Below, piece by piece: positions 4,669 to 42,004 of a stretch of DNA of 48,069 nt (positions are counted from its first letter, which is position 1; every line of letters starts with the position of its first letter). The notes beneath the pieces are model-generated. The model worked only from the letters and a program-made list of their open reading frames with translations, searched no databases and was not told where the DNA came from. This DNA comes from Chrysophaeum taylorii (lineage: Eukaryota > Sar > Pelagophyceae > Pelagomonadales > Pelagomonadaceae). The position numbers and the translations under genes are program-made. The stretch lies in NCBI GenBank assembly GCA_029834535.1, contig JAQMWT010000380.1, forward strand, positions 1 to 48,069, in the 5' to 3' direction.

Positions 4669-5460
4669 ACTGTATCAAATATCGAATATCGACCAAGAAT
4701 CTCGAAACACGTCCGGATCCGACCACTCGAAGTAACTCACGTCGATTCCAACAACGCTGTCTGTCGCTGTAAAAACAGCACTCGCGGAATTCCAATCCGC
4801 TGGCAATTCAAAAATGCCCGTGGGTAGCGATCCCACTCGCTAAACAGCTTCCACCGTTCAGCTATACCAAAATCAATTCCCGGGAGAATGCGCTGCGATT
4901 TCCAACTCGCACGCGTGTTCGTCGTCACTCGGATCGTACGAACACAAACAACGTTCGCGTATATTCTCAACGCAAACCGGTCCAACGGAAATCCGTGTGC
5001 TTGATCAGGGCGCACGTACAAGTCCGGACCACGTAATACAACACGTACGGCAGCACTCGCTCGACGGCGACCGAGGTAGTCGCACAATCACGTGTCCTCC
5101 ACCACGTATGGCGGCACAGAAAAACCTTCCCGCCCCCCGGGCGACAAAGGGGGTACTCACCGACTCGTCCTAGCTCACTGAACGAGGGAAACACAAATCG
5201 GGGTCGGATATGCTCGCCACACACCTTGCTCACGCTCACCAAGCCTCTCAGCAAGATGGAGAGATGGTATATGATAGTAAGAATGCTACAAGAATACAGC
5301 AAGACTGCTTCTCACAAGAGAGAGGTATGATGTCACTAAGAAGATAGGGAAAGGTGTCCCGTTGCGCGGGTATCAAGCCTCGAGAGAGGGAGGGTAAGAC
5401 TTAGCGGTCAGAAGTTGCCGCCACGGAGGGTAAGCTAGCGGTCAGAAGTTGCCGCCACAG
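4669..5460 (-). other. Non-coding leader of family A, unit 2
   Basis: Leader upstream of the gag ATG at 4668. It resembles the leader of the complete family A copy (around 10280-10430). No protein signal is seen, and no LTR is recognisable before the Helitron begins. Confidence 0.55.
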
Positions 5461-6620: not shown

Positions 6621-6703
6621 AATTTCGAATTACACCCCACATGCATCGTGGATGCTGGCCTAGCTCTGACGTAACACTATTACCCTGTCAATTTTGGTTT
6701 CAG

Positions 6704-8943
6704 ATGGCGGATGCCGATTCAGCTGGAGTCACAACTGCCGACGCAGATATCACAAGAAGCAACGATGCTTCTGGGGTGGACACTTGGCCGTGCGAACGAA
6801 GTGCCTATCAGATCGGGCATCTCATCGGGCGTGGTGCCTTTGCTAAGGTCTATGTGGCACAATTTGTATCATGTCGTGCTGTCCAACGAGTTGCCTTGAA
6901 GGTTATGGATTTGGACAACGTTGCTACGCAGTTGTCAGACATACTTCGAGAGGTGAAAATGATGCGAATGTGTTCTCATGACAATGTCTTATGTTGCCAC
7001 GCATCTTTCGTGAAAGACAGTGAATTGTACTTAGTCATGCCACTGATGGATAAAGGTTCTTGCCTGCACGTCATGCATGCTGCTAAGAAAAGTGGGCTTT
7101 GTGAAGGAATGTCTGAGGAGTGGATCGGCTATGTTTTGGCAGAAGTTCTTAATGGGCTGCATTATCTGCACGAGAACGGGCATATCCATCGGGATATCAA
7201 AGCTGGCAATGTTTTACTTGATCCTGCGGGGAAAGTTGCTCTCGCGGATTTTGGTGTTTCCTCATGGTTAGTTCACGGGGGACAGCGGCAACGGAAGGCC
7301 CAAACCTTTGTCGGAACACCGAAAAAAGCCGGCGTAAACTATTGTCAAGTCCTGAGGACAAAAATATGCATCTGCTCTTTTCATCAGGTGTTGGATGGCG
7401 CCCGAAGTAATGGAACAAGTCGACGGTTACGATTACAAGGCGGATATATGGAGTTTTGGGATCACGGCTCTTGAGCTTGCAAAGGGGTTCGCACCTTACG
7501 CATTTTATCCTCCGATGAAGGTTTTGCTGCTAACTATACAAGAAGAACCTCCATCACTGCGGAGTTATTCAACTGAAAAATCTTGCACCGGTAAAAATTG
7601 TCTGAGTTCCGCTGCATGTGGTCACATGCAGGTGAATCATTTTCGCGTTCGTTCAAAGAAATGGTCCGCATGTGTTTGCAAAAGGAGGCACGCAAAAGGC
7701 CAACAGTACAGACGCTGCTGAATTGCAAGTTTTTCAAGGTTAAATGGTCTGTAGCTCCAGTGGTAGAGCAGCTGCTGAATCATGTTGATAATATTTCGGT
7801 AAGTGAACACCGTGAGTCCTGGTACGCTCAACTATGCTCTTTTTCTGTCGCAGTGGAATGTATGGACCTTAAATGAATGTTAATGTTCTCACAGGTGTCT
7901 GGAGAATCAGATGTTCTTCATGAGCGCGGGCCTGGGACGTTGCCCGTTCAGGGCCTTCATTTCCAAACATCACCATCTGCAGCCAAAGTCTGTCTTCTGT
8001 CTTGAAGCTCACTTTATGCTCATCATTAGCGAACCTCCAGGTTGGCGACAGCGAGTTCACACATGACCCGACAGCCGATGGCCGTGTGGATCTTAGTGTT
8101 CTCGTCCACGACAACGAGATCTACGCTGAGAGTAGTCGAGAATGTGTCACTGTCCTTGTTGTGATCTGTGCTTCAAGAGTTTGAGAGAAATTATTTGCTA
8201 GGCCGAGTGCAAAACACCATACCAATCTCTTTATGTGAGCACAGGTTCACGATAACCCAAGCTTGGCGTCAGCTGCTGGTAGTGGAGAATACGTTAACGG
8301 GACAACTTGGACTTTCGATGACGGTGCGTTGTCGTGCAGTAGATCATCATATCACGCCTGTGAGCCGTTCATCACATTTTTACTTGCCACTTGTTGGATA
8401 TACTAGTTTATTTCTGGTCGATTGTTTTGTCTGGGTGAACTCGACTGGACTTGTCGCTTGGGTATTAGTTGTGTGGAGTGGTGCCTTCGGAGCATACTGC
8501 GTTCAACATGCTGTAAAACCACACAGGACATGAGGTGGTACTCAAATCGGAGTCCTATATTCGACGAGAAATCGATGCGAAGTGCGCGCAAGATGCCCAG
8601 GAGTGCGAAGCTATTTTTGATGATTTGGAGGATCTCATGAAGCAACGTGGAGGAGAATGGGATTTCAAAAAAAATCAAGATGTTTGTAATAAGGAGACCG
8701 AAGTGAGTTCGTGACATCCAGCTTGATCGCTGGGATAAAAGGCCGCTACCCGCGGCTGTATTGCCTGTACATGCAAGTGCTAGGCCTGTTGCATGTCTGC
8801 GTGAAAAACACCGCTGTCGTGGACAACGTAGTGTATTCTTGCAGTGCTGGGACCGATCGATACTCCCAACTAAGAGACAATGCCAGTTGATCTCAAGAAA
8901 TCCAACCACAAATGGAGAAACTGCGGTGACAACTACGAGCTAA
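6704..8943 (+). CDS. STE20-family serine/threonine kinase, OSR1/SPAK/Fray-like
   Basis: Spliced gene. Exons read as 6704-7320, 7388-7590, 7632-7798, 7895-7987, 8041 to about 8145 (end unsure), 8245-8323, 8527-8702, 8845-8943; phases agree at every junction I could test. Kinase features: Gly loop GRGAFAKV (42-49), Lys66, Glu83, HRDIKAGN (162-169), DFG (182-184), activation loop TFVGTP then CWMAPEV, and [11 protein letters not shown]. The activation loop and the [18 protein letters not shown] stretch are typical of the OSR1/SPAK/Fray group, which in animals relays WNK signals to ion cotransporters. The C-terminus is helical (exon 7, [15 protein letters not shown]) and I see no clear PF2/CCT domain. 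The start ATG directly follows a splice-acceptor-like TTTGGTTTCAG, so a 5'UTR intron is possible. The stop is TAA at 8941-8943. Confidence 0.82.
7321..7387 (+). other. Kinase intron 1 with apparent GA-AG ends
   Basis: Family conservation demands GTP followed by CWMAPEV. This is obtained exactly if the exon ends after CC at 7320 and resumes with G at 7388, which gives an intron GAAAAAAG...CATCAG. The nearby GT at 7334 would add four residues and shift the frame. The next intron starts GTAAAAAT, so the first donor looks like GTAAAA with the T changed or lost. Confidence 0.55.
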
Positions 8944-9612: not shown

Positions 9613-10183
9613 TGTGGCGGAAACTCCCGCCTCCTAAAACTTACCCCTCCTTTAGCCCCCCCCTTATCAGGGGCACCCTACTCCGATCTGATAACTAACT
9701 TCAGACCTCTCCCGAGCATGGGAGCCAGGCCGGACCGGCAGGACCCGGTACGGAATCACAGAGGAAAATCACGCAGTTGGGGCAGAGGCGAGGGACGAGG
9801 ACGGACTTGTTGATGGTGGACCGCCACTGCGCGCGGTCTTGTGCGAGGTCAAGCGTCGCAGGCCGCGGACGTGTTGGTCCACGAACAATCGACCTGTCCG
9901 TCGCGTTCTGCCCAACCGAGCGAACCCAACCCAGCGCGGACTTTCCGGGTGCTAACCGGCCAGGCCGGGAGGCGAGCAGGCACCGTCTCACTCCGGGACG
10001 TCCGGGGCCGCCGCAGGGAGCAAGCGTGTTAGGCGCCGTCCTCCATCGCAACCAACGGTTAGCGATCGCAGGGTCAGGGACCTTATGATGTCAGTTTTCT
10101 CTATGACAGCATCTTCCCTGATTTCTGTGATTCAAGTGTTCTTAATCATAAAGCAACAGCCGATCCTCAAGTTGAGAGGACCA
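9613..10183 (+). repeat. Family A 5' LTR (interrupted by LINE-X)
   Basis: The LTR parts are 9613-9692 and 10087-10183. Joined, they match 20351-20527 closely (start TGTGGCGGAAACTCCCGCC, end GTTGAGAGGACCA). No clear tRNA primer-binding site follows; the next bases are GGCACGG. Confidence 0.85.
9693..10086 (-). mobile_element. LINE-X 3' fragment inserted in the LTR
   Basis: 5'-truncated non-LTR retrotransposon. Its 3' end has the family signature (GGCTCCCATGCTCGGGAGAG, GTCTGAAGTTAG). It encodes DLAQDRAQWRS, the very C-terminus of a LINE RT protein as seen more fully at 35742-36246. It splits the LTR between CTGAT and GATGTCAG. Any target duplication is eroded. Confidence 0.82.
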
Positions 10184-10782
10184 GGCACGGCATGTGTTTG
10201 TGGTTGTGTGGCAAGAGAACGGCCTTCCACGTCCAGTGACTCGATCAAGGGCACGGACGTGAGCGGCGAGCCTAGATTTGAAGGTGAGCCAGGTAGGCAT
10301 AATTTCCTGTTACGCCACAGGTGGTGGAGGAATACGAGATTCGAGCGACCATATCGGTCGCAGCGGACGAGTGCATCTCGCATTCTCTACACGGTCCGGA
10401 CAAGCCGTGCGCGCCCGGATCAAGCGCGCCGACGAAGAGTTCGAGAGGGACCATCGCCGTGGGAAAGTTCCCCGGCCGGATACGTTAGTCGTTGGAGGTG
10501 ACGACGCGCGGATCGGTTCGAGCCGACGTGCAACCCGGGTACCGCTGCCGCAGGCGAGCGGAGTGAGATCGCAACTCACTGGAGCATTGATTGCCGGGCA
10601 GAGACGGATTCTGCCACCCACTGGAACTGATAGATCAGTCGGTGGAAGACGCACGCGGCGACGATATTACGCGTGACGTGGACGAGTAGAAGTCCCAGAG
10701 TCGGAGGAGCACGAGAACGACGACGACCCAACCTTTTTGGACCCGTTCCGACTTTGGCCGATTAGAGCGAGCCGGAGCCGAC
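10184..10782 (+). other. Family A untranslated leader
   Basis: Between the 5' LTR and the first Gag-like ATG. It resembles the leader of the minus-strand family A copies. Short open frames on both strands look incidental. Confidence 0.55.
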
Positions 10783-11352
10783 ATGGAGGAAGATGACGCT
10801 GCTGACGAGCAGATACGAGAAACCGAACCTTCAAGTCGTCCCGAGGGGACGAACGAACGGCATGATGATGATGATGATGATACTGATGATGATGATGAGG
10901 AAGAAGAGCTGAACTACAACGGCGATGAACCGCCGAGGGCGCCGCCGGCGAGGCAACCGGCAGCCCATCCAGAACGTGCGCGAGATGATGAACCACCGAA
11001 CGTTGCAGAGATTTACGAAGCCCATTTACGCGAGATACGCCGAGAAAATAAGCGCGCACAAGAGATCCTCATCCAGCTGATAGAAGAAGAGAATATACGG
11101 CGTGAATGGCTACACCAGAAGAAGATAGAAATAATGCAAGAGCAACTGCGGCACGAACACGCTCGATTAGATAAGATACACGAGCAAGTACGATGGTGGA
11201 CCCGCGAGAGGGATGAATTGCGTACGCCGAGTCGCTCGAGGCGAGTGAGCAGTCCTGAGGGAGAATCCCGAGCCTCGGAGGAACTGCCGCCTACGCGAAC
11301 GCGCGCGACAGTTAGGACGTCTCGCGAGACGACGACGAGTCGTCCGAGATGA
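10783..11352 (+). CDS. Gag-like N-terminal ORF, acidic plus coiled coil
   Basis: 189 residues. The first 60 are acidic, with poly-Asp runs encoded by GAT repeats at 10863-10896. Residues 75-150 form a charged coiled coil (EIRRENKRAQEILIQLIEEE). The tail is Arg/Ser/Thr-rich. The layout matches the N-terminus of Gag at 3980-4668 (acidic, coiled coil, Pro/Arg linker), but the capsid that should follow is missing. It overlaps the next ORF by 4 bases (ATGA). Confidence 0.55.
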   Translation: MEEDDAADEQIRETEPSSRPEGTNERHDDDDDDTDDDDEEEELNYNGDEPPRAPPARQPAAHPERARDDEPPNVAEIYEAHLREIRRENKRAQEILIQLIEEENIRREWLHQKKIEIMQEQLRHEHARLDKIHEQVRWWTRERDELRTPSRSRRVSSPEGESRASEELPPTRTRATVRTSRETTTSRPR

Positions 11353-11774
11353 CCGAAACGTCGTTAAACTACGAGCAAGAGCCATCCAAGTCGAAGGAGC
11401 TCACCCAAACCAAAATCCCCACAGGATCGGTGAATCTGACCGAAGCGTCGTTAAACTACGGGCCGAAGCCAACAGCCGCTTCTGACCCGGTGTCACCGTT
11501 TGTGGCACGATATAATTGGTCGTCAGCTGACACAACCCTTGGTTTTGACGACGCGCCGGAGTTATGTTTGAATCCGATTTACGAGCCCCGTGCAGCCGAG
11601 GACGCCCAATGGAATGGACCCGCCGCTGCTACGCTCGATGCTATGAGTCTACCTCCGGACATTCAAGTGGATGACACTTCGTCTCCACGAACTTCGTATC
11701 CACGATCGATCAACGATGCGTCGCAGAGGATTATCTCGAATGATAAGCGCGCACCTGTTTACACGCCCATCTAA
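11349..11774 (+). CDS. ORF with SLNY repeats, family A
   Basis: 141 residues, starting in an ATGA overlap with the previous ORF. It contains ETSLNYEQE and ASLNYGPKP, with SVNLTEA between them. The same SLNYG and SVNFT modules occur in family B Gag, and the underlying DNA is also conserved (TCGTTAAACTAYG). Function unknown. It may be the remnant of a Gag region after loss of the capsid. Confidence 0.5.
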   Translation: MTETSLNYEQEPSKSKELTQTKIPTGSVNLTEASLNYGPKPTAASDPVSPFVARYNWSSADTTLGFDDAPELCLNPIYEPRAAEDAQWNGPAAATLDAMSLPPDIQVDDTSSPRTSYPRSINDASQRIISNDKRAPVYTPI

Positions 11775-11838
11775 CGTCAAGTGCAATTTTGTGGCCATTT
11801 CTTGACGGATATGACGTCGGGGACGACGCCTTCTTCTT

Positions 11839-13335
11839 TTGCAGCCCCCCCCCCCCGACGAACCGATTGCAGACGTTTTTGCAGACGTTTTTTCAGCCCC
11901 CCCCGACGAACCGATTGCAGACGTTTTTGCAGACGTTTTTGCATATGTTTTATATAGGCCGAGTGAAACGGCCGAGAAAATGGATACGAAAGCGGAAGAG
12001 GTGAAGAACCTTATAACGCATGAACCGCCTTTGGAGCTCTGTGAAAGCCCCGGCGTATTACTCACGAACGAAGAGTTCAAAGATTTTCAGCCTGCATATG
12101 ATGATGGCTATGTGATAAAGAAAGATCCCGAACAGACTATGAGGGATGAGTATAGCTGCCGCCCAGAATCGAATTTGGATGGGACGATCAGCATGGATAA
12201 GAGGAAGATGAGCGTACCGACGATATGGATACGAGCTCACTGTTTCCTAAGGAAGAAACCGCCAGAGCGGAAAGAAGTGCGATTCCGACCCCGAGGCATG
12301 GAATTATTCGCCAACGGAGAGTTAATTTACGTTTGGTCGGAGTTTTGGCAAGAAGACGACGCATGTGTCGATGTTTCGATAGACGAGACGATTGAGGCAG
12401 TTCGGATAGGCTTGGGAGCACCAGTCGCCTACAGGGACGATCCAGAGATACTAGGACCTGCCGAACCGACGCCAGAGAGAGACAAAGATAACAAGAGCCC
12501 CAGTCGAAGTTCGCGCCGGCACAGACGACGCCGATCGCGCGACGACGAAGACGACGGAGGCCGATACCAATATAATTTGGGTTCTTTGAGCGCTACGCTC
12601 GCGTTTACGACCCCTTGCGGTCAACAGTTACCATTAGGAGTGATGATGTACCCGGACACGGACACCCGCTCCGACGACGCAGCCGACGCCCTTGCCGCGG
12701 CCGCATTCGAAGATCGTGCTCGCCCGCCGCCGGACGAGCCACCCAACGAAGTGCTGACCGATCGTCGGTCTTTGGCACGGATTTACGAGGAGATATCGGG
12801 CGATGAACCCGGCGAATCGAGCGATGAACTCGAAGCTCCACGATACTGGGAAGGCGATTCGGAATCGGAAGACGAAGAAGCCGCACCTGGTGAACCAGTG
12901 TCATCGATTACGTTACTTGACGAGTCGTCCAAGGACGACCCACCGTTTGTTTTTGACGAGGAAGCCCTCGACGCTTTCGGCCTATCTTTGGATCCTCCCG
13001 AGATGACCTTTGGCGACCGGACTGGCAGTGAGCCAGACATGGGTTTCTGCAGCGAGAGTACGAATGATCATTCGACAGAGGGGACGATGACCATTGCGAG
13101 TGATGCAGAAGACGACCTTACGATAGAGTTGACGTCGGGGACGACGCCATCTTTTCCTGCGGACCCCCCCGAAACGGTTTCGGTTACGACGGATCGAGCC
13201 ACGGATACGCCGCCGGAAGAAAAGGATAAGAAATCGCATAATGCGTCGGACGAGAAGCCACGTGCACGGGCCGAAGACGGAAGGGACGCTTCTCCAATTG
13301 AGCAATGCCCGGACTTGTCACCGCCAGAAGAATAG
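11839..13335 (+). CDS. Long acidic Gag-like ORF, family A
   Basis: 498 residues in one frame. The start lies in a C-rich duplicated stretch encoding two copies of PPDEPIADVFADVF. The middle has a Trp-containing segment (ELIYVWSEFWQEDD), an SR-rich basic patch (SRSSRRHRRRRSRDDEDDGG) and a long acidic region with YWEGDSESEDEE. The SR/acidic part matches the tail of Gag at 38-769. There is no enzyme motif. It is probably the Gag tail or a Gag-Pol linker. Its first codons may not be the original start. Confidence 0.55.
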   Translation: MQPPPPDEPIADVFADVFSAPPDEPIADVFADVFAYVLYRPSETAEKMDTKAEEVKNLITHEPPLELCESPGVLLTNEEFKDFQPAYDDGYVIKKDPEQTMRDEYSCRPESNLDGTISMDKRKMSVPTIWIRAHCFLRKKPPERKEVRFRPRGMELFANGELIYVWSEFWQEDDACVDVSIDETIEAVRIGLGAPVAYRDDPEILGPAEPTPERDKDNKSPSRSSRRHRRRRSRDDEDDGGRYQYNLGSLSATLAFTTPCGQQLPLGVMMYPDTDTRSDDAADALAAAAFEDRARPPPDEPPNEVLTDRRSLARIYEEISGDEPGESSDELEAPRYWEGDSESEDEEAAPGEPVSSITLLDESSKDDPPFVFDEEALDAFGLSLDPPEMTFGDRTGSEPDMGFCSESTNDHSTEGTMTIASDAEDDLTIELTSGTTPSFPADPPETVSVTTDRATDTPPEEKDKKSHNASDEKPRARAEDGRDASPIEQCPDLSPPEE

Positions 13336-13476
13336 AGCAGTGACGGTGTTTCCGGAGTCGAGCCGAACCCGACCGAAAAAGATTGAGGTAAGAAGAAGAT
13401 TCGCAGCGTTCTCGATTGGGACGAAGATGAGCCGACGTGGAACCTGCAGGATTGGTGGACGAGAACTCGGAACTTC

Positions 13477-14884
13477 TTGCTAAAGAAGCCACCAGAAAGG
13501 CCGCTCAGCTACGGAATCGAAGCAGCAGCCGACACGGAACCGATCGGCGCCGACTGTGACGATCAACCGAAGACGAATGAATCTACGGACGCATTCTGGA
13601 AAGACGAAATGAACGAGTTATGGGAGAGGTCCTTTGCTTCCGAGAACGCCGAAGACCGGAGTCCCCTACCAGCGTTGATTCCCTCCGAGATTGTCATGGA
13701 GGAAGAGCGGAAGCCACCAGTTAAAGAGGCTGCCGCGAGCGCTGCGTCGATGACGCCGACGACAGATGATACGGGAGCTCAAGCCGCGGTGTCGATGCCC
13801 AACCCCGGCGACGAGCGAGTCAGAGCCCAATGTTCTCACACTTCGTTACCGCAGCGAGATGGCAGGACTATCGAAGATGATTTGGTTACCCTCCGTTGTT
13901 TGGATACGGATACTCTTGCGTTTATGGCCTGTCACATCTACAGGAATCGTGACGGACCGAAATTCTCGACGACCATCGGTGTCGACGGAATGGCAGATGT
14001 TTCTTATATTTGCCGCGAAATGGTCAGAAAGTTGGCCAAAGATAAGTTGATTTTCGATGAAGGCGAGCTTCCGATTAAGCGCAAGCTGTACAGATCGGGG
14101 TTGAATACGACGATGATCTATCGTTGGATCGCGATCCGGGTCGCTCTCGCCGATGACATCGCCGCCCCCATTGTCGCTATTGTGGCCGAAACCAACTATC
14201 TGTTCCTGTTGGGAGGGCGCGATATCCGAGTTTTAGGGTGCCGTCATGGACTACCCCCACGATCGGATCTGTTTTTATCGAACCCGAGTCGTCTACGGAC
14301 GCAATAAGATTAAAGTCAAGGGTGAACGAGTCGATGCACCCATTGTGACCTTTCGATCTGTTTACGATCGAGACCCGATAACCGTGCCGATTTACAATCA
14401 TGAGAACGACGCCTTTCGGCAGTGTCTCGACCTGGTCAAGACTCGAGTTTACGCTCGTCTGGGCACGATTAAAGATCTCCGCAGCCCGCCGCCAGAACAA
14501 GCGGTAGCCTTGACGAAGCGGGGACATTCTACGACCAAACTCTCCCCAGCTCCGGGAGAAGCCGCGCAGGAAGTTGTCGCTTACGTTGCGCGCACGCTAC
14601 ACATCGAGCACGGTCTGACTTACAATTTACCGGTTGTTTTGTCGAAGCTTATGGAAAAAGGACAGGTCTTCGTCGCTACGTTTGTTGAAAACGAGCAGTT
14701 GGGAGTTGTCGAAGGGATGTGTTCTTCTTGCGAAGAGCACGACAGGTCATCTGCTCGCGTGGCTGTTACTTCCCTGCAAGAAGTGCCAACGGTCGTCACT
14801 CAAGGCGAGGTTCTCGCAATTGGCGACATCGTTCGGCACGAAGATGAGTTGAGCGACGATCAACGAGCTCACGAAAGAATGTGA
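13477..14884 (+). pseudogene. Retropepsin-like protease and linker, family A
   Basis: The frame from 13477 carries FSTTIGVDGMADVSYI. It is placed like the retropepsin D-S/T-G triplet, but the triplet reads D170-G-M. LFLLGGRDIRVLG follows, the usual second conserved protease motif. A 1-nt shift near 14238 moves the frame to MDYPHDRICF, the expected VIDYP-type strand, and the new frame continues to the TGA at 14882-14884. The last ~150 residues are a linker of unknown fold with EVVAYVARTL and CSSCEEH. It is cleaved from Pol by analogy with Ty3 elements. The frameshift makes the copy defective. Confidence 0.65.
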
Positions 14885-14936
14885 AGAAGGGTACGACAAG
14901 AGGAGCCTTTCTTTCACCGTTTCCGTCGCTAGTCAC

Positions 14937-15762
14937 TTGACGCGCTGCGACGCATCTCCCCCGCCGATGTTGCTGAGCACGGCGCAGAAGGACGCTAAAG
15001 CCGCTGCTATGGACGAGTCCTCCCCCAAACGACCCAAGAGAGACGACGATTTCGCTCGATGGTCTGAAGAAGATGAAAAGAAGTGCCGCGAGATCACCGA
15101 AGTGGAGATCCGCCGCCTATACGAAAAGGTTCAATGGCTTCCAATCACTTATCGTAAGGTGGTAATGCTGTTCAGTGGAGCCGGAGGCAGCACTTTAGGT
15201 CTCCAACGAGCCAACCAAATGTGTGGGGCGTCGTTTCGAGTCGTACTAGCACTCGATGCGACGGACACCGCCAACAAGATTCACCGCAAGAACTTTCTGA
15301 ATATTCCTGTGGTGCAGCACACGCTTTGTGGTCGCTATGTTACAACCTTACGGTTGATCGAATCTTATTTACCTTACGCGGAATGGTCGTCGTCGCTGTG
15401 CATCGCGTCGCCGCCCTGCGTACACTCCGATCTGTGCAACTTGACTTCCAGAGATGTTGGGAAGGGAGTCACTGCCACCCACTGGACAATGAAACTATGC
15501 AAGATGGCTGGTTTCTTCATGTGGTTGATAGAGCAGGAGGCCTCGATTATTTCTTACGTTGCGCGTTTGCACCCTTATGTGTACCTCGTCAATTTTTACG
15601 ACATAACGCCCAGTTTGATGAGCTGTCGCGTGCGATTGTTGGTTTCCAGACACCCGCTCCATTTGCGCGCTGTCCCCGAGACCTGCAAGATTATGCAACC
15701 AGAGTTCGCCGCTGCGCTTGGCTACACAGACGAACGGCATTTACTTCAGATGAGCAATTTAG
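14937..15762 (+). pseudogene. C5-cytosine DNA methyltransferase domain in retrotransposon Pol
   Basis: Numbering starts at 14937; the first ATG is 14967. Motif I reads VVMLFSGAGGSTLGLQRA (75-92), followed by VVLALDATD (acidic strand-2 end). Motif IV is CIASPPC with the catalytic Cys161 (15417-15419). WLIEQ (196-200) is the motif VI place, and MSCRVRLLVSR (228-238) the motif VIII place, keeping both Arg. FAAALGY...LLQMSN leads into motif X. SPPC rather than DPPY/NPPY separates it from the adenine methyltransferases of DIRS elements. The preceding 70 residues are charged. The domain is cut by LINE-X exactly where motif X should read GN. It sits between protease and RT, so it is an element gene, not a host gene. 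Confidence 0.8.
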
Positions 15763-16042
15763 TTAGCACCCGGAAAGTCCGCGCTGGGATGGAGTTCGCT
15801 CGGGTGGGCAGAACGCGACGGACAGGTCGATTGTTCGTGGACCAACACGTCCGCGGCCTGCGACGCTTTTGCACGACCTCGCACAAGACCGCGCGCAGTG
15901 GCGGTCCACCATCAACAAGTCCGTCCTCGTCCCTCGCCTCTGCCCCAACTGCGTGATTTTCCTCTGTGATTCCGCACCGGTTCCTGCCGGTCCGGCCTGG
16001 CTCCCATGCTCGGGGGAGGTCTGAAGTTAGTTAGTTAGCTAG
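15763..16042 (+). mobile_element. LINE-X 3' fragment inserted in the methyltransferase
   Basis: It begins TTAGCACCCGGAAAG and ends in the signature GGCTCCCATGCTCGGGGGAG, GTCTGAAGTTAGTTAGTTAG. The flanks AGCAATTTAG (15753-15762) and AACATTTTAG (16043-16052) look like an eroded 10-bp target duplication. The open frame running from the methyltransferase into this element is fortuitous. Confidence 0.82.
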
Positions 16043-16149
16043 AACATTTTAGGATCATCACGAGCAGCGACAGACGCAGCTTGTACCGTTACGCGCGTCC
16101 CACTTCGCATAGGACCGCACCGTTCCATTACAGATCTCTGAATCTGAAA

Positions 16150-16683
16150 ATGACTTCGGAGTTGCTGACGATGCCCCTTGATTTTGATTGGGCCGGCTTC
16201 TCCAGGACGACCTCGTTGAAACACTTGGCGTCCGTCGTGCCACCAGACACAATTGCTTTATTCGCACTCGATATGCACAACTCTGTGACCAAGGATTTTC
16301 ACTTGAGCGGCGAGGCTTTGCCGTCCGCGTTGAGTCCTGCAGACCGACCGTTTGATTATTATTTGCAAATTAATGAAACCACCCTTCGTCACGTACAAGT
16401 TCCGCTGTTAAACACGCGCACACGTGTCGTAAGAAGGGTGTCGACTGATGATCTCCAAGATCGCACCAAATGGAAACCTCCAGAGGTGCCGTTGCTTCCG
16501 CCTGCAACAGATGAGCCGGGGACGTCTCATGCCTCTTCTGTTGCCCCCCCCCGACAACCAAATTTGGAAGTTCCGCCAGATCCGGAGCGAGATCGGAAAC
16601 CGAAGATTAGGAGCGAGCCGAGTGTTCGTGTCGAAGGCGAGAAGATCAACAAAAAGCCACCCGGAAGTGAGACTAAAATATGA
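16150..16683 (+). CDS. Linker ORF between methyltransferase and RT, family A
   Basis: Starts at ATG 16150 and ends in TGA 16681-16683. It has the same frame as the RT ORF that follows, so only this TGA separates them. The first 100 residues look globular (DFDWAGFSRTTSLKHLASVV), the rest is Pro- and Lys-rich linker. I do not recognise it. It may be the end of the methyltransferase target-recognition region or an N-terminal Pol extension. Confidence 0.5.
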   Translation: MTSELLTMPLDFDWAGFSRTTSLKHLASVVPPDTIALFALDMHNSVTKDFHLSGEALPSALSPADRPFDYYLQINETTLRHVQVPLLNTRTRVVRRVSTDDLQDRTKWKPPEVPLLPPATDEPGTSHASSVAPPRQPNLEVPPDPERDRKPKIRSEPSVRVEGEKINKKPPGSETKI

Positions 16684-18009
16684 GAAAAGTTCGATGTGCC
16701 ATGGAAAGATGCGCCGCGCGATGCTGATGGTGCACCGCTGCCGCAAAATCCCGAGCATGTCAAGGATAACCCCGTGATGAAAGTGAAGATTCCTACGAAG
16801 GAAGAAGTTGACAAGGTTGTTCAGGAGCTTGGAATTCCTGACAACCCGCACTTAGATGACGATGCGAAGCTGATGCTCCGTCACTGTGTGCAATATTCTT
16901 GGGCCTTTTTCGACCCGATTATAAGACCTGTAGACTCACCTCCTGTGTCTCTACGATTCAAAGACGCTAATCCGCGACCGATTAAGATGACGCCCTACCG
17001 ACTGACGCCTGCGAAGCTCGATTGTCTCCGCAAGCAGATCAGTGAGTGGTGTCGGGATGGAGTCATTCGCCCGGCCAACTCACCTTGGGGCTTTCCTGTG
17101 TTGATGCTTCCCAAGAAAGGAGCTGAGATTGGAACGTCAAACGCGTTCCGTGCTGCAGTTGACTTACGTCAGCTCAACGATCAATTGGTCAATGGCAGTT
17201 GGCCGAACATTCGACAAGACGATGCTTTAGCTTTTCTCGCCATGCGACGCTGGCGGACATGCATTGATATTAGATGGGGATACCACAACCTTCGTCTGGA
17301 TCCGGCAGCGCAAGACGCTGTCACGATGGTTAGCCCACTTGGCGCTCATAGTTTCTTGCGATTACCTCTAGGTGTGAAGACGGCCGGAGCTCTTTTCTGC
17401 AAGCAAATAGCGAGTGACCTTTCGAAATGGATGTATCGAGACTTGGTTGCGTTTGTTGACGATATTATGATGGGATCCGACGATCTTCATCGACATTTAC
17501 AAGTTTTGATCGAAGTTATGTGTCATTTGGCACAGAGAGGGTACAGCGGTCGAACCGCAAAGTTCCACCTTCTCAAGGATGATATAGAATTTCTGGGACA
17601 CATTTCGACCCCAGAAGGCTTGAAGCCGAATCCGAAGACGCTGGAAGCACTGCAGAAGATGCCGATTCCAGGTACTTTGCCGAATACTTATCCGAAGACC
17701 CAGATGCGCTCTTTCATCGGCATGAGCAATTACTGCCGGCGATATGTGAAGAGCTACTCGAAGATCGTGGAACCGCTGAGACGATTATGCCTCGAAGGCG
17801 TGAAGTTCGAGTGGACGCCCGAGTGTCAAAAGGCTCGGGATACGATTATTGAAGCTTTGGTTGATTCCAGAGGAGTCTACCACTCCGATTATGATCTGCC
17901 CTTTCAGATCAATCCGATGCTTTCAAGGACGGACTTGGAGCATATCTCTTCCCGATTGTCAAGTCAAGGACAAGGCAGGAAGAGTGACTCGAGAAGAACG
18001 AGTGATTGA
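16684..18009 (+). pseudogene. Reverse transcriptase (Ty3-type Pol), family A
   Basis: The frame from 16684 holds the full finger-palm RT: PYRLTPAKLDCLRKQI, GVIRPANSPWGFPVLMLPKK, RAAVDLRQLND, CIDIRWGYHN (first catalytic Asp), LPLGVKTAGALFCK, FVDDIMMGSDD (catalytic Asp pair, Phe for the usual Tyr) and FLGHISTPEGLKPNPKT. RT-RNase H connection motifs follow (MRSFIGMSNYCRRYVKSY). All three catalytic Asp are present. The frame leaves the RNase H reading near 17911 and runs to a stray stop at 18007-18009. It copies element RNA to DNA in cytoplasmic particles in related elements. Confidence 0.88.
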
Positions 18010-18871
18010 ATACTGGAGCCGAGCCGTGCCGAAGGAGATGCGCAATTATGAGCCCCGTCGGCTAGAGCTGCTGGCAGTTATCCTTTCTCTGGAGCACTTT
18101 CGAGCCTATATCGAAGGGCACCGGACTGTTTTGGAGACCGATCACCGAAATTTGACGTTTTTACGTAAGGCGACGCATTCGTCTGGACAGCTTGCTCGTT
18201 GGGCGATGCGCCTCGCCAAATTTTACCCTGAACTTGGTTACAAGCCGGGAAAGTCACCGGGAATGAGTGTCCCTGACTGTCTCTCCCGCAACCCGATAGA
18301 TCATGTCATCGAGACTGACGAGTTTGGAGAACCTTCGAACCACGCTTATTTGGTGTTCCAAGAGCTTCCCCGACCTATTGATGACCAAGGAATTCCTGTT
18401 TCCGGCTGTCACTTCATATTGTCGTTTGTTACGACCGAACTACCGGAAGACGAAGAAGAAAATCCCGAAAAAGATCCGATGAGATTGACTACGTCTCGCG
18501 CTACGAGACAACGTCGGAAGAACCGTGTGCGCGATGAGCCGCGGGTCTTCAAGGACGCAGCCGCCTACAAGGATTATATCGATAAAACTCCCGATAACAC
18601 GACGCTCGATGAGATCGCACGTGAGCAAGAATCTGATGCTACTTGCGAGGATATTCGCTATCGGATGGCCCAAGGTCATACGTCGCGACGTTACCGAGCG
18701 AACGAACGATATGAAGTTGTGAAAGACATTCTTTACCGCATTTCTGCTGATTTGCACCCGATGATTGTGGCCCCTGCCACGTTGCGCAAGCGCATTATTC
18801 GACTCTACCATGACACTCCGGTTAACGGTGGTCATATGGGACGTCACAGTACTGTCCAGGCTATCCAATAA
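17849..18871 (+). pseudogene. RNase H and integrase zinc-finger region, family A
   Basis: The first RNase H strand (DAFKDGLGAYL, about 17914-17950) lies in a third frame, so two small indels at about 17911 and 17964 break the domain. From there one frame reads RVIEYWSRAVPKEMRNYEP, LELLAVILSLEHF (catalytic Glu) and LETDHRNLTFL (catalytic Asp), ending the domain near PDCLSRNP. A ~150-residue spacer follows, then the integrase HH pair LYHDTPVNGGHMG. An in-frame TAA at 18869-18871 cuts the protein in the integrase zinc finger. Confidence 0.82.
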
Positions 18872-19720
18872 CGATTATGGTGGCCTCACATGTCGAACGA
18901 AGTCGGAGTCTTCGTTGCTGAATGTTTAGTTTGCCAGAAAGCTCGTACACCTGAGCCGAAACGAGCTGGACTCTTGCAACAGCCTGTCTACGATGGTGAT
19001 GGCGCTGTTCTATGCATGGATTTATTTGGACCATTGTCCAGCGCTGGTCCCGAGACGTATCTTCTAGTATTTTTTGATCCGTTCTCGCACTTCTTGATTT
19101 TGGATGTTTTGAACGACAAGACTGCTGAATCCATTCTTGAGTCATTTGTCACTAACATCCTCCTCAAGGGCTACGTGCCCCAGATGATTCGTACCGACAA
19201 CGGTAAAGAGCTCGTGAACAAGTTGATGCGCGAGTTTTGCCGTCACTTCAACACGCGATACCAAACTACGATCCCCTATCATGCCCAGTCGAACCCTGCT
19301 GAGCGTGTGAACCGATTTATCACGGCCTTCCTCCGTGCCTGCCTCCAGGGCCGGAACATCACGGATTGGCCCGACTTTGCCCATTATATTGCGTTTTGCT
19401 ACAACCGCAAGTTTATTCCAGGCACGCAGATTTCTCCCTTTATGCTACGCCCGAACCGTCAGCCGATGTTGCCGACCGATTCAGCGCTTATGGATTTCGA
19501 TACCAGACTGTTGCCAAAGACTCGCTCTGATGCAGTCGCTGAAGCTCGTGGACGATTGAAGTATTATACGAAGATCGTCCACGAAGCTCGTGATAATGCT
19601 TTGAAGAAACAACGACTGGCTTACAACGCCGATTATGTCGATGTCGAATACAAGGAAGGATCGCATGTTTTGCTTTACATTCCTTTCCTGAAGAACGAGC
19701 TTCGACCGGAATGGCGATGA
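18872..19720 (+). pseudogene. Integrase catalytic core, family A
   Basis: Same frame as the preceding part. LWWPHM and CLVCQ complete the HHCC zinc finger. The DDE triad is visible: MDLFGP, RTDNGKE and NPAERVNR with 35-type spacing to the Glu. FCYNRKFIPGTQISPFML is the usual end of the core. A TGA at 19718-19720 falls just before PFIIKERLSPLAYRI, the GPY/F module of Ty3 integrases, where Gly would be expected, so a single G to T change explains it. Confidence 0.86.
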
Positions 19721-20310
19721 CCGTTTATTATCAAGGAACGCCTTTCCCCGCTCGCCTATAGGATTGAGTCTCTCGACTCTCCGCCCGAAGAACGACATGT
19801 TCATGTTAGTCAGATCACGCCTGTGATGGTTCCCCCGATCGTTGATCAAGCAATCCGCAAACCCGAAGAAACCTTCCGTGATGATTATCAGCACGGTAAG
19901 TTTGTTGTTTTCCGGATTCCCAAAGGAAGCGCTCTGATTGGCGCAAGAAGATTTATGTTGCCGAAGTTTACGAGCCTTACACTTACCAGAATGATCGTGT
20001 TGCTCTACATATCTATTCCGATTTGGGTCCGAATGATGATGCTGCTTATTTCAAGCCGACCTCTCACCTTTCGAACCGCAAACTCAAGCCTGAGTACAAG
20101 GACGTTGACGGTCGCAGTTTCACCGACAAGTCCAAGATCTCACCCAGCACAACTCCTGGTGTCACGGATTTCCCTCCGCACGAGATTGATGTGTTGGTCC
20201 CCAAGTTTACTTTATGCAGTGGTCGAGTTCGAGAACCGATCATCACCCGCGTTTACAAGAAGATTCGTTCACGAGATGCTCGTAAGGCGAAGCCGCGCTC
20301 CTCGCGCTAG
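19721..20310 (+). pseudogene. Integrase C-terminal tail, family A
   Basis: It continues in frame from the GPF-type module (PFIIKERLSPLAYRI, HVHVSQITP), then a frameshift near 19945 moves to a frame ending at TAG 20308-20310. The last 90 residues are basic at the end (KKIRSRDARKAKPRSSR). No chromodomain is recognised. Confidence 0.65.
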
Positions 20311-20350
20311 CCGCTCGCTGGGGCAGCTCGTATTCTCACCAGGGGAGTCC

Positions 20351-20527
20351 TGTGGCGGAAACTCCCGCCTCCTAAGGCTTACCCCTCCTTTAGGGCCCCC
20401 CTTATCAGGGGCACCCTACTCCGATCTGATGATGTCAGTTTTCTCTATGACATCATCTTCCCTGATTTCTGTGATTCAAGTGTTCTTAATCATAAAGCAA
20501 CAGCCGATCCCCAAGTTGAGAGGACCA
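20351..20527 (+). repeat. Family A 3' LTR
   Basis: Starts TGTGGCGGAA, ends GAGAGGACCA, and matches the two parts of the 5' LTR. To its right lies family C sequence, so family A inserted into or next to the left family C copy. Confidence 0.88.
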
Positions 20528-20530
20528 GGC

Positions 20531-21695
20531 CTGTCTGGCTGAGGTAGCCGTGCTGGTAAGATTCCAGCGGGTGCGCATAACTCTGGTGAATGCTGACATT
20601 GGCTTGTGCCTGATCTGAAGTCGTGCAGGGAAGCGAGATCGTCTGTGCTTTTGCGGATTGCAGCGACAGGGGCGAGTCATGTGCCTGGGAGGCTAGAAGG
20701 CGGCCTTTGTCTTCCAGAGGCGAAGGGAGCAAGCAGAGCTGTAGCTTCATCTCGTCGTGATCAGATAGGCGCAATGAGCTGGTGCGCGTGATCGTGGTGC
20801 GCTTACCTGTATCTTCATGATGTACTCGTGTGTCCTGCGGTGGTGCTTCTGCGAGCGGGACATATCTGAAGGACTGATCCATCGGACGGGGTGCATCAGC
20901 TATGAATGAGGCAGAAGCCAGTAGCAGTGCAAGGTCGGGAGACAGAACGTGTGCGTGGTCGAGCAATTGAGCGTTGGACCTGGGCATTGTCTGCATAGTC
21001 CGGAACCGTGCTGTGCAGTTGGTTTGCTTTGTCTCGTCTGCTACATCAATGGGCTGACTGGTGTAGCTAGCTTTTGTGGTCTTATGTTTCGTCTTTTTGT
21101 CCAAGAGAGACTGCGACATAGTAGTCGTTGCTATGTGCGAGACTAGAAGTAGCTGTTGAGCAGCTGTTGAGAGCCGAGTGCTATCTTGTCTGGCAGTTTC
21201 TGTTGCTTTGGAGTTCCAGAGACATGATTGCGCAGCTTCAGACGTCTTGGCATTGGGGATTGCCATAAAGTAACTCGTAAGTTCAAAGTCGGACGTCGGA
21301 AAATGCATCGAAAGACCTGTGAGGTCACCAATTGAAATACGCCCTCGTAAGGCGTGCGCGACTTGGTGCGGGCGCGATCGACTTAAGTTGGTGATCGGAA
21401 GGTCGTGAGACACGTGGCGGCGCGGAGCGTCGGTGGAAATGACGAGTGTCTTTGTGTTAAAGGCGGTGACGTGGAGAGCATCGAGAAGCGTGTCATGCTC
21501 CAAGAGCAAAAGCGCGTGATGCGGGTGGTCTCGGTGCCAAAAGGGGTGTGGTTCGCGGCTGACCTGTCTGCAAGGTAGTGCAGATGGGCGCGTGAGTTGA
21601 GATCCCGTGGTGGAGAGTATCCGACCTGGAATGCTTGGGGTCCAGTGTGGGAAATCGAAAAAGGGGATCGCCGAAGGAGAGTGCAGTAGAACCAA
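20531..21695 (-). pseudogene. Family C ORF, downstream part, left copy
   Basis: The frame corresponds to the second half of the right-copy ORF (26640-27279) and beyond. It shares HVSHDLPITNLSRSRPH, GRISIGDL and SQSLLDKKTKHKTTK with it. The frame then runs artificially into the family A LTR. Function unknown. The protein is rich in His, Ser, Thr and Leu. Confidence 0.45.
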
Positions 21696-22089
21696 GGGCG
21701 ATGGAAGGGTCAGTCATGCTGGGTGCATCCTCAATGGCGGAGGTGCGGGGACCAGAGCAGTGAGTGCCGTAGTGACCAGGGTTGCCCATAGGCGTGTAGT
21801 GTAGTCGAAGGTGCGGGCATGTGACATGCGTCCTCGAATGAGGAGTGACGTGCCGAGCGATAATACGCTTTTGAGGGAGGCAACGTGCGTGACTTGGGTG
21901 CATGTTTGTGGTGGAGCCGGCAGCTGGCGTGGAACATTTGTTGTACATTCCAGTTATGCGAAAATGCTGACAGAAGCGGATCAGGTGGAGCGAGTCTGTG
22001 CATTGTGCGCGGAGAATGTCACCCGAGAGCGCAACATCGATTTTCCGGAGGCAGCGCAAGCGTGTGGCGTCCAGAAGAGAGCCATGCAA
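21493..22089 (-). pseudogene. Family C ORF, middle part, left copy
   Basis: Matches the middle of the right-copy ORF (LRKIDVALS, HARCLPQKR, HYTPM.NPGHYGT). It is in a different frame from the neighbouring blocks, so the left copy has frameshifts where the right copy has one open frame. Cys/His residues are frequent but form no known finger. Confidence 0.45.
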
Positions 22090-22205
22090 GGGGACATAAA
22101 GGACCGAAGTGGTTGAATAGAAGCGTGCGTGGTTTGCGGCTGATCGGGCCGTTCAGAACTCTCGAAATCTTTGTCTGTTACTGCAGCCATGGGGAAAGCT
22201 TTCCA

Positions 22206-23603
22206 TCAGCTTGGTCGCGGTGAGACATAAGGGTCGGCAGCCGAAAGGAGTGTGTCCTCTGACTGAGAGTTGGGGAGCGGGTGTTCATGTGCTGCGACTG
22301 ATGCTCGTGCGATGACATCCATCGAATCGCAGCACGGTGGTCGCAGATGGGTCCATGCAACCTGCTGAGCAGTGTCATCCAGTGCATCCGGCCGAGAAGG
22401 TGGATGGTGGGTGCAGCAGCGAGCGCCGGTGAGCGGCAGTGCGCGCCTGTCGTTAGTGAGAGAAGGCAGCGAGGTGGAACCAGCTTCGAAGTGATCGGGA
22501 GCGGCTGATCGATAGATATCGAACAAGGCGGGAGTGCCTGGTGAATCTGAGCTGATACCTGCAGGTGCGGTGAGTTCCTGCGAGTATGTTGACCGTGGGA
22601 CCGTTGACAGCGTGTCTTGTCCTTGTGGGTACGGCATTGCGGGGGCATTGGTGATGGTGCTTGGATCAGGTGGCTGATCTGGAATGGTCGGGGAGACCAT
22701 CTTCGAGGCTAGTGAAGTCGGTCTTGCTTCTTCGCTGTATGCATCATACGAGGGGGCTGAATCCGAGTGGATGTTGTCAGTAGCCTGCGGCTCTTGTGCC
22801 TGGGGCATTGAACACGGTGGCGCCATGGGTCTATGAGTGTGGCTGCCATAGTCGATGTAGGCGTAATACTCGGGAACATCTCGAAGTGTCTTGTTCTTTG
22901 ACTTGTCGAACAAGGGAACGAGGTGGCTTGGTGTTCCTTCGGCAAGACTGCTTCCTGGGCCGTTGTGCCCGAAGAGAGAAGAAGCCCTTGTGCATGTCTT
23001 GGCAGCATGATGGTGATCATGACCATCAGGGAGAGAGCTGTCTGTTGATAATTCGGAATTTGTCGACTCTTGATCTACGTTGTTGTGCTTCTTGGTTTCT
23101 CTTTGCACGTCGACAGGACTGCTGTCGAGACCGTTGTGCCCGAAGAGAGAGGATGCCTTGATGCATGCTGTGGCAGCTTGATGGTCGTAGATAGAGCTGT
23201 CTGTTGCTGATTCCGAAGTTGTGGGATCTTGATGTTGGTGGTCTTGTTTCTTGGTGTGACTTACGTGAAGAACGTCGCCGATGCGGGGATGTGGTCGAGT
23301 TGGAATGAGCCAGGTGGCTGAGAAGGCGAGCGGGTGCAAAGGGGTTGGGGGGGTGCCAGATAGGCGAAGAGTGATTTGGCAGAGGAGGAGGGGCCAGAGA
23401 TGGCGATGGGTTGAGAACAGATAGGCGGAGCGGGGGGTGAACCAGGAGAACCAGGTCCGGGGCATCCGTGGAGGTGGTGATGATACTCGGGGATAATCGG
23501 GAGAGAGGCATTGGAGGTTGGTTCGGATGGGGATGAAGGTAGGTTGTGAATGGGAAAGGAGGTAAAAGATGCGATGCAGCATCTTTGGTGGGGTGGGTGG
23601 CAT
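22206..23603 (-). pseudogene. Family C ORF, first part, left copy
   Basis: From about 23280 down it aligns to the start of the right-copy ORF in the same frame for about 200 codons, with one 3-bp indel (FEAGSTS against F-AGSTS). It contains two copies of a RASSLFGHNG module (about 23140 and 22960). The right copy is open where this one ends in TGA. The first ~100 residues are probably out of frame; the 23026-24525 frame fits better there. Confidence 0.45.
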
Positions 23604-24525
23604 CCAAGGAGGTAAGAGTGGTTTGGAGAATGCCGTTGGTTTCGAAGTGGGAGTTGCGAATGTCAGCGTGGGCAGTTTCGAGTGCCTTGAACAGGGTGTG
23701 TGTTAGGTGGAGTTCCGCGTGGGTCGAGACGAATTCGTCAGCTTGGATGGCGAGCAGGGCAGTGGCGAAGGCTAGGGCAGCGTCGGTGATGGCGACTTTG
23801 GCGGCTGTGGAGGACAAAGCGTCGTCCTTGAGAGTGAGCGTGGCCTTGGTTGCGGCCAAGTCGGCGGTCTGGGAGTGGAATGCAGCCTGAGCGATGGCCA
23901 ACTCGCGTTGGAGCGCAGACGGAGGTGCATTGGAACTTTGAGAAAGAAGGTGGAGTGTTGCTTGGGTGGAGACGGGGGAATGGTCGTAGCCGTGGAGTGC
24001 GTAATCACGCGGGTGGAGATGAAAATCGGGGGGACAGCGACTTTCGAAAGGTGATGAAGGTCGGTCAGGAGGGTCCGATGGTTGGGCGGCAGTAGCTTGA
24101 GCCGCGGCAGTAGCTGGGGTAGTAATGGAAGTGCCAGGGCCGTCGTGGCCGTAGGTGGCATGGTCATCGGGAAGGGACTGAGTGTTGCGGCGAAGGGGTT
24201 GACGAGGATGTTGGGGAACTTGAATAGATGGTGAAGGTGGAGTCGCCGATAGTGGGGAGTTAGGCTCCAGTGAAGGAGGTGGAGGCTCCGGTGGAGTTGG
24301 TGGAGTGAAGGGAGTAATGCTTAGTGGTGGTGGTGGAGTGTTCAACATCGCTGGTGCGATATTCGAGCAAGGTGGAGTGTCCTCGTGAATGTGGGGTGTG
24401 CCAGGTTGAGGAGTAACCCTGGCTATGCCTGGGTCCGGAGGGAAGGCAGTGGGGCCCGAGACTTTGTTTGCCGTGGGGTGTTTGACATCCGGTGGGGTTG
24501 ACGGCAGAAGATGGGTGTTGTTCAT
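23026..24525 (-). CDS. Family C Pro-rich, Gag-like ORF
   Basis: Up to 499 residues. About 170 residues of Pro/Thr/Ser-rich sequence precede an Ala-rich helical stretch (residues ~205-300, with ALQRELAIAQAAFHSQTADL and many heptads) likely to form a coiled coil; a second Pro-rich stretch follows. The layout resembles a retroelement Gag, but no capsid or zinc knuckle is recognised. The last ~80 residues overlap another frame and are doubtful. Confidence 0.45.
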   Translation of the reverse strand: MNNTHLLPSTPPDVKHPTANKVSGPTAFPPDPGIARVTPQPGTPHIHEDTPPCSNIAPAMLNTPPPPLSITPFTPPTPPEPPPPSLEPNSPLSATPPSPSIQVPQHPRQPLRRNTQSLPDDHATYGHDGPGTSITTPATAAAQATAAQPSDPPDRPSSPFESRCPPDFHLHPRDYALHGYDHSPVSTQATLHLLSQSSNAPPSALQRELAIAQAAFHSQTADLAATKATLTLKDDALSSTAAKVAITDAALAFATALLAIQADEFVSTHAELHLTHTLFKALETAHADIRNSHFETNGILQTTLTSLDATHPTKDAASHLLPPFPFTTYLHPHPNQPPMPLSRLSPSIITTSTDAPDLVLLVHPPLRLSVLNPSPSLAPPPLPNHSSPIWHPPNPFAPARLLSHLAHSNSTTSPHRRRSSRKSHQETRPPTSRSHNFGISNRQLYLRPSSCHSMHQGILSLRAQRSRQQSCRRAKRNQEAQQRRSRVDKFRIINRQLSP

Positions 24526-24944
24526 GTTCGAGAACGTGTTGAACAGCAGGAGGGGGGGGTGACCATCGAGATGATCGGGTCTTGGGTCGCGACTTCGTGA
24601 GAAGTTTGCTCGAGGGGGGTTGCCGTATGAACAGCTGGTGGAGAAGCTTGTTCAAGTTGCTCGTCCTGGTCGAGTTGCTCGTCTTGAGCTTCGATTCTTG
24701 CGGCGAGCGCAGCATGTTCGGCAGCGTGTTTGGCTCTGAGATCAGCAAAAACAGTGTCGATCCGATTAGAGAAGTCATCTAGGTGCTGTTGCCAGAGAGC
24801 TTGGAGCTCTTGTGGTGTAGCGAATTGCTTCGCTGATTCCAGACTCGGGACTTGTGGGTCGTGAGTCGCCATCGTTTTGGGGTTGCTTTTTGCGCTGTTG
24901 TTGGTTGCCTTTCGCACTTTTTCACACTTTTTCACCAGTAGCAA
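24522..24944 (-). CDS. Family C first ORF, coiled coil
   Basis: 140 residues, the first sizeable ORF after the 5' LTR. The basic start (MLLVKKCEKVRK) may precede the true Met at MATHDPQ. Residues 50-105 form a coiled coil (ELQALWQQHLDDFSNRIDTV, AEHAALAARIEAQDEQLDQ). It resembles the 5' ORF of LTR elements by position only. It overlaps the next ORF by 4 bases. Confidence 0.45.
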   Translation of the reverse strand: MLLVKKCEKVRKATNNSAKSNPKTMATHDPQVPSLESAKQFATPQELQALWQQHLDDFSNRIDTVFADLRAKHAAEHAALAARIEAQDEQLDQDEQLEQASPPAVHTATPLEQTSHEVATQDPIISMVTPPSCCSTRSRT

Positions 24945-25090
24945 GCGATGAGACTTGACTACGGTCTTAGAAACTTCAGGAACTTCAGGAGATTGCTCTT
25001 ACCTGGAAATCCTGGGTCTTTGTCCGAGACGTCGATCGAGATCGATGTTTTTCGGAGGACGTTTCTCTACCAGTACCCGACTGGGTCCAA

Positions 25091-25272
25091 ACCTAGAGAA
25101 CAGTAAAAATCACTGTGCCCCTGGTAGAGAATGGTGGCAGTGGTAGTGCCACTCTGCTTGTCCTGTCCTCTTACGACACAAAGAGCGGCACGGTGTGCGA
25201 CACAGCGATTTGTTGTTTATTGGGTGTGAGTGTAGGGGGGTCCTAACCCTAAATGGAATTTTGTATCTCTAA
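25091..25272 (-). repeat. Family C LTR, left copy (5')
   Basis: The minus strand of this stretch matches the plus strand at about 31030-31222 (shared GTGCCGCTCTTTGTGTCG, GGCACTACCACTGCCA and GGGGCACAGTGA). The end CTCTAGG recurs at 48003. It contains TTTAGGGTTAG near its start. Confidence 0.72.
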
Positions 25273-25461
25273 TGATCACCATCATGGTGCACATGCACAA
25301 GGGCTTCTTCTCTCTTCGGGCACAACGGCCCAGGAAGCAGTATTGCCGACGGAACGCCAAGCCACCTCGTTCCCACTTTCGATAAGTCAAAGAACAAGAC
25401 ACTTCGAGATGTTCCCGAGTACTACGCCTACATCGACTATGGCAACCACACTCAAGGACCC

Positions 25462-33591: not shown

Positions 33592-33601
33592 GTGACTAGA
33601 G

Positions 33602-34152: not shown

Positions 34153-34314
34153 CAGCGTTGTGAATTCACTGGGCTCACTTCACTAGGTTCACTGAATTTG
34201 GTTCACTTCACTTCACTTCACTTCACTTCGCTTCATCGAAAATTATCGTCCGAAGTCCAATGTTCACTTCACGTTCATTCACTTCGGCTGACGGCCTGAC
34301 CCTGACCCCGTCTG

Positions 34315-42003: not shown

Positions 42004-42004
42004 A

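Follow-up and report, generated by a model that had tools for sequence, protein, structure and literature searches.

Can a Ty3-type retrotransposon carry a cytosine methyltransferase of its own inside Pol, and if so, what would such an enzyme act upon? The question is raised by a 48,069-nucleotide stretch of Chrysophaeum taylorii DNA (the window), which is one complete contig (C380) of the 70.8 Mb, 697-contig genome searched here. The initial annotation placed a C5-cytosine methyltransferase (MTase) between the protease and the reverse transcriptase (RT) of a Ty3-type element. The Ty3 assignment holds, since the plus-strand element at about 9613-20530 has both LTRs and the order RT-RNase H-integrase expected for Ty3/gypsy. 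Its 5' LTR (9613..10186), into which a nested repeat has been inserted at about 9692-10079, aligns by blastn with the 3' LTR (20351..20530) at 76/80 and 104/108 identical positions. Between them, all on the plus strand, are open frames at the gag position (10690..13335, comprising 10690-11352 and 11815-13335; no Pfam family above the cut-off), a retropepsin-like region (13387..14307, VDGMA ... LLGGRDI), the RT (16684..18009; PF00078, E 6.3e-12), RNase H with the beginning of the integrase zinc domain (17804..18871; PF17917, E 6.7e-20) and the integrase core (18872..19720; PF00665, E 7.5e-13). The MTase indeed lies in Pol upstream of the RT, whereas the protease was recognised from motifs by eye, with no Pfam protease at E<=1 in the window frame or at E<=10 in a sister copy. 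The window copy is degenerate, since its reading frames are interrupted at several points, and neither a clear primer-binding site nor a target-site duplication was recognised in it by eye.

Elsewhere in the window, positions 836-5431 hold two direct repeats about 2.3 kb apart with minus-strand frames that look capsid-like by eye, two of which were scanned and gave no Pfam match. Direct repeats about 8.1-8.5 kb apart and 81-96% identical occupy 32057-47499, and a protease-like DSCAS motif was noted by eye within them, on the minus strand at 40786-41721. The sole clear non-transposon gene piece among nine window frames scanned is a protein kinase exon at 6623-7471 (PF00069, E 8.1e-34).

Concerning the MTase of the window copy, motif I (LFSGAGG, 15168-15188), the catalytic SPPC (15408-15419) and the motif VIII sequence RVRLLVS (15627-15647, RVR from 15627) are present as originally described, all in frame 14853-15956; together with a degenerate motif VI, EQE (15531-15539), they make up the 5' part of the domain (15075..15762, plus strand). 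The span first assigned to the enzyme, 14937..15762, thus contains motifs I to VIII and a stretch beyond, but the MTase does not stop at 15762. Its 3' part, with motifs IX-X (RSLNLKMTSELLTMP ... LASVVPP), is found on the same strand at about 16132-16281, in frame 16039-16683, beyond a nested repeat of about 285 nt (about 15752-16041, plus strand, about 11 nt common to both borders) that cuts the MTase frame, and motifs IX and X are therefore missed by that span. The repeat is a later insertion, because all 29 other copies retrieved through DNA similarity are uninterrupted from about 15762 to about 16042; in copy L026 the junction at the insertion point is displaced by a few bases. That the MTase might belong to the nested repeat was ruled out, since the start of the repeat lies only at about 15752 and the element continues through this point in the other copies. 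Further copies of this repeat are found at 32592-32868 and, in inverted orientation, at 9692-9956. A single family of short repeats, reaching about 390 nt, accounts for window positions 9692-10079, 15752-16041, 32477-32868, 35741-35908, 42789-42918 and 43399-43528, and two of its members sit inside the Ty3 MTase element. A single-sequence AlphaFold model of the window fragment was uninformative (mean pLDDT 30.6).

Is the domain a genuine C5 MTase? The window copy matches the Pfam profile PF00145 with E 8.6e-4, yet its 19.3 bits are below the 22-bit cut-off, which means that profile scores can miss such domains. Across the family, all 24 stop-free copies aligned match PF00145 at E<=0.1 (best E 1.6e-5), and a copy of a strongly diverged subfamily (L093) reaches 38.4 bits (E 1.3e-9) with both profile ends covered. 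For copy L016 the MTase domain scores 24.4 and 26.8 bits against the cut-off of 22, and its entire 1275-aa frame (P0005) 21.5 bits, below it. A family profile built from 10 rows of three subfamilies was aligned with a profile of seven C5 MTases, of which six are plasmid enzymes and one is the host DNMT2-like protein, and they match over 245 columns, from motif I to X, with a probability of 97.4 and E 1.2e-11, while one reversed and eight shuffled controls gave E 0.14-0.82. At default settings the alignment comprises motifs I-IV only (E 7.7e-11). The NCBIfam dcm model matches 23 of the 24 rows, far below its cut-off, and searches of PDB sequences with the profiles gave only E 0.11 and 0.58.

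The motifs themselves show both conservation and change. Motif I and the catalytic PPC are present in the family, the exceptions among 24 rows of subfamilies A1 and A2 being one SPLC, in which the Cys is retained, and one FRGAGG; motifs VIII (R.R), IX and X align to C5 MTase profiles. The ENV of motif VI typical of C5 MTases is replaced by EQ, with the Glu retained, PPCQ by PPCV or PPCI, and the GN of motif X by GS or AS. The presumed catalytic Cys, the motif VI Glu and two motif VIII Arg are invariant in 24/24 A1 and A2 rows, and likewise in 10/10 rows that include subfamily A3. As judged by sequence, the Ty3 Pol domain is confirmed as a C5-cytosine methyltransferase, of presumed activity.

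The domain is not a peculiarity of one copy. A protein search of the genome gave at least 140 MTase matches among those listed (140 of 975 candidates scored), of which 111 have no in-frame stop within the matched stretch, and an A3 query gave 138 listed matches (915 candidates, 130 scored), some of which are fragments of single copies. Copies with one open Pol frame do exist: at least 14 have MTase and RT in the same frame, the longest being 3063 and 3067 aa, and PF00145 and PF00078 match together within an 867-aa piece of the third subfamily. The MTase frame is unbroken in 22 of the 30 loci fetched, window included. In all three subfamilies (A1, A2 and A3) the MTase occupies an identical place in Pol; motif I and the PPC Cys are retained even where subfamilies share just 39-42% identity over the MTase domain, and the deepest split is that of L093, with 44% identity over MTase to RT.

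Looking from the RT side, an MTase was listed upstream in 82 of the 150 RT matches listed. Five of the remaining 68 were fetched and MTase sequence was found in 5/5, two of these being rearranged and lacking the motif I part. No family copy lacking the MTase at this place was found among the 15 RT copies whose sequence was obtained here (10 + 5 loci). Such an enzyme had been called rare in retrotransposons. Within this genome that does not apply, since it is present in many copies and under selection as a component of several subfamilies. The sub-threshold Pfam score of the window copy might by itself have suggested a chance likeness of motifs, or a host gene fragment captured by one copy. This explanation is hardly credible: family-wide conservation refutes it, the selection described below and the profile matches speak against it, and chance motif resemblance in particular is ruled out by family-wide presence combined with those matches.

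Selection was estimated from stop-free rows covering at least 90% of the respective part, a filter that biases towards low values (rows used for A1 and A2: MTase 22/30 and 8/8, RT 14 and 5, linker 12 and 2). Between A1 and A2, the MTase has a dN of 0.113 with saturated dS (median 2.63), the RT a dN of 0.052, dS of 1.70 and w of 0.030, and the linker a w of 0.228. The corresponding w values inside A1 are 0.187 (MTase), 0.202 (RT), 0.349 (linker) and 0.305 (protease-like part). Purifying selection on the MTase is thus nearly equal to that on the RT.

Relatives were also sought outside this genome. When the MTase-RT region served as query, over longer proteins and with scoring confined to the 8000 top candidates, 15 proteins reached E<=0.001. 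Among them the strongest match (E 7e-111) is P0006, a 2018-aa MMETSP transcriptome protein with a Ty3 Pol and an MTase domain upstream of the RT; it is 49% identical over 40% of the query, on the RT side, and its MTase domain is 27% identical to that of A3 over 308 aa (E 9e-28). In P0006 the Gly-rich motif I is absent or changed and TPDC replaces SPPC, with the Cys, Glu and Arg positions retained, and PF00145 gives no match at E<=1. The domain can therefore persist without the standard motifs. PF00145 is absent from the precomputed domains of all 15 matches, and no MTase was found in the two of the other 14 that were scanned. The MTase region of A1 in its 701-aa frame had 2,270 candidates in the protein database (proteins of about 385-1225 aa), none at E<=0.01; P0006 was missed by this search because its 2018 aa exceed the length range.

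These changes bear on whether the domain still works as an enzyme. Motifs VI and X are degenerate and P0006 lacks motif I, as would be expected if the domain were enzymatically dead and retained in Pol for a structural or nucleic-acid-binding role. We consider this quite unlikely, given that motif I and the PPC Cys are retained across subfamilies only 39-42% identical over the domain, that the presumed catalytic Glu and Arg occur in every row, and that selection is strong.

A second retroelement MTase exists in the same genome. The genome search with PF00145 listed at least 57 matches (123 of 474 candidates scored), and 28 of the 30 loci fetched from it belong to one Ty1/copia family distinct from the Ty3 family (family A). 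The other two are one DNMT2-like gene and one orphan MTase gene; the latter (L032, G000:C621), whose 2086-aa open frame reads GTSCVDYS at motif IV, is probably a host gene. The copia MTase contains PCQ and ENV and matches C5 MTases by profile (probability 91, E 9.5e-7). A copia-type RT (PF07727, E 5.8e-39) lies in the same frame, preceded there by an integrase core (PF00665, E 0.0036, below the cut-off). The resulting order, protease-like motif (by eye), MTase, integrase, RT, identifies a Ty1/copia element. Copies of this family include L047 and L069 (G000:C96) and L033-L060, one copy having a 1952-aa open frame that includes the copia RT. In the window, immediately after the 3' LTR, there is an inverted repeat (20530-27784) with arms at about 20530-22997 and 25291-27784, whose pieces are 89-99% complementary; both arms weakly resemble the protease-MTase region of the copia family (one of them at 25291-26703, E 1.7e-5).

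How are the two enzymes related? BLASTP shows no similarity beyond chance between the copia and Ty3 MTases, which are kin at the superfamily level inasmuch as both are C5 MTases. The copia MTase region had 2,821 candidates in the protein database and no relative among them, and viral contigs scanned with the Ty3 MTase, the host DNMT2-like protein and the copia protein also gave no relative. In a tree of 12 rows, DNMT1, 3 and 5 sequences not included, P0006 groups with the Ty3 MTases in a single clade (100/100), which is the only informative part, the deeper forks being without support; the copia MTase is a long branch (3.09) of unsure position. Both enzymes occupy a like position in Pol: each follows the protease-like region and precedes the next enzyme, which is the RT in Ty3 and the integrase in copia. 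With the copia row so unsure in its place, independent acquisition of two distinct and only distantly related C5 MTases by Ty3 and Ty1/copia elements at this position is an inference, one that seems somewhat likelier to be right than wrong. If true, it would suggest a common need for an MTase inside the particle, selected more than once, and not chance capture.

Concerning the target of the Ty3 enzyme, lasting CpG methylation of integrated copies should leave a mutation footprint, which was sought in 23 A1 copies over 3.8 kb, where sequencing errors among singletons would blur it. Singleton C>T changes per column are 0.132 at CG, 0.130 at CHG and 0.135 at CHH, with A/T transitions at 0.145. 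For C>T in 2-6 copies the values are 0.064, 0.042 and 0.044, with A/T transitions at 0.072. The integrated copies therefore show no strong footprint of lasting CpG methylation, and little or no CpG footprint, so that lasting CpG methylation fits less well than RNA as the target or short-lived marking of the cDNA.

The role first suggested for the enzyme was that the element would methylate its own DNA copies and so escape or shape silencing; as considered here, CpG methylation would be maintained on the integrated copies or across the host genome. This has some points in its favour: C>T changes found in 2-6 copies reach, at CG, 1.5 times their frequency at CHG or CHH, though they stay below the A/T transition rate; only two PF00145 genes other than copia ones were found among the 30 loci fetched with that profile, from a search in which 123 of 474 candidates were scored; and Symbiodinium, which bears such elements, has genome-wide CG methylation (PMC5890265). 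Against it are the CG observed/expected ratio of 1.32 in A1 copies and the equality of singleton C>T across CG, CHG and CHH, and we regard it as distinctly improbable.

A different possibility is a role like that of DNMT2, in which the domain would methylate RNA (m5C) inside the particle, either genomic RNA or the primer tRNA. The missing strong 5mC mutation footprint in integrated DNA is consistent with this, and so are the best solved-structure matches of the A1 single sequence, which are DNMT2 / tRNA C38 methyltransferases, although with E 0.046-0.052 only and confined to motif I. The hallmark of DNMT2 is a CFT motif. By inspection, neither this motif nor SPPCQ was seen in the ten-row, three-subfamily MTase alignment (A4). 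Moreover, A3 has as its best solved-structure match a cytosine methyltransferase other than DNMT2 (8yf3, E 0.031), and the 12-row tree gives no supported joining of the Ty3 MTase family with the host DNMT2-like protein. We regard an RNA target as rather unlikely.

The explanation we favour, tentatively and with confidence just short of even, is an ancient, one-time uptake of the MTase by Ty3 followed by its retention as a working Pol domain that methylates the element's own nucleic acid in the particle. An old Ty3 lineage would have acquired a C5-MTase gene, probably once, before the present subfamilies diverged, and the presumably catalytic domain would have been retained between the protease-like region and the RT. 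Made within Gag-Pol, the MTase would most likely be packaged into the virus-like particle and perhaps processed afterwards; as it is part of Gag-Pol, the simplest reading is that it enters the particle with the RT and acts on the nucleic acid found there, the element's own. The target would be cytosines of this nucleic acid, most simply the new cDNA before integration, and the methyl mark would afterwards be lost or diluted. The elements of this explanation that can be read from the sequences are the domain's identity, its fixed place, its frame common with the RT in many copies, the purifying selection, and the presumed catalytic Cys, Glu and Arg, which do not vary in any row aligned. The explanation draws support from the profile match extending from motif I to X, the score of L093, the frames common with the RT, the selection, the invariant residues, the presence of the domain in P0006 and, as a precedent, the activity of SymbioDIRS enzymes in yeast (PMC5890265). 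Against it stand the altered canonical motifs, the modest scores of several profile searches, the persistence of the domain in P0006 without standard motifs, the lack of activity of other retroelement enzymes in the same yeast test, and integrated copies in which C>T shows no clear excess at CpG.

C5-MTase retroelements have previously been described in dinoflagellates and a charophyte, as the initial annotation had correctly stated (PMC5890265). KnitGypsy-Dnmt3 of Klebsormidium nitens (de Mendoza et al. 2018) resembles the present family in having a C5 MTase within a Gypsy/Ty3-type Pol frame and in being under purifying selection, with Ka/Ks < 0.2 (PMC5890265). It differs in its DIRS-like repeat arrangement and in its Dnmt3-related MTase (PMC5890265). 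The window element, by contrast, has ordinary direct LTRs at both ends, and its MTase is of a strongly diverged type, assigned to no class against a comparison set without Dnmt3 sequences, at a site common to three subfamilies. SymbioDIRS-Dnmt3 and SymbioLINE-Dnmt of Symbiodinium are likewise retroelement C5 MTases with hundreds of copies under purifying selection, but they belong to DIRS and LINE elements and not to LTR Ty3 (PMC5890265). The SymbioDIRS enzymes are Dnmt3 members active in yeast, where two copies gave de novo CG methylation; those of KnitGypsy-Dnmt3 and SymbioLINE showed no activity in the same test, which its authors call inconclusive (PMC5890265). DNMT3 members are also reported in LTR Copia and DIRS elements (PMC12344493). 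These again are C5 MTases in LTR elements, and the published Copia enzymes were assigned to DNMT3 (PMC12344493), whereas the copia MTase described here was placed in no class against a set without DNMT3 sequences.

The literature searched contained no paper tied to this Ty3 MTase family, which is not proof that none exists. Relative to the known systems, what appears to be new is a strongly diverged C5 MTase in three Ty3 subfamilies, its MMETSP relative and the co-occurrence of a different, copia-borne MTase. Retroelement-borne cytosine methyltransferases are thereby extended to a strongly diverged enzyme fixed in an old Ty3 lineage, and with two different enzymes at a like position in Pol, their comparison can test why retroelements carry methyltransferases.
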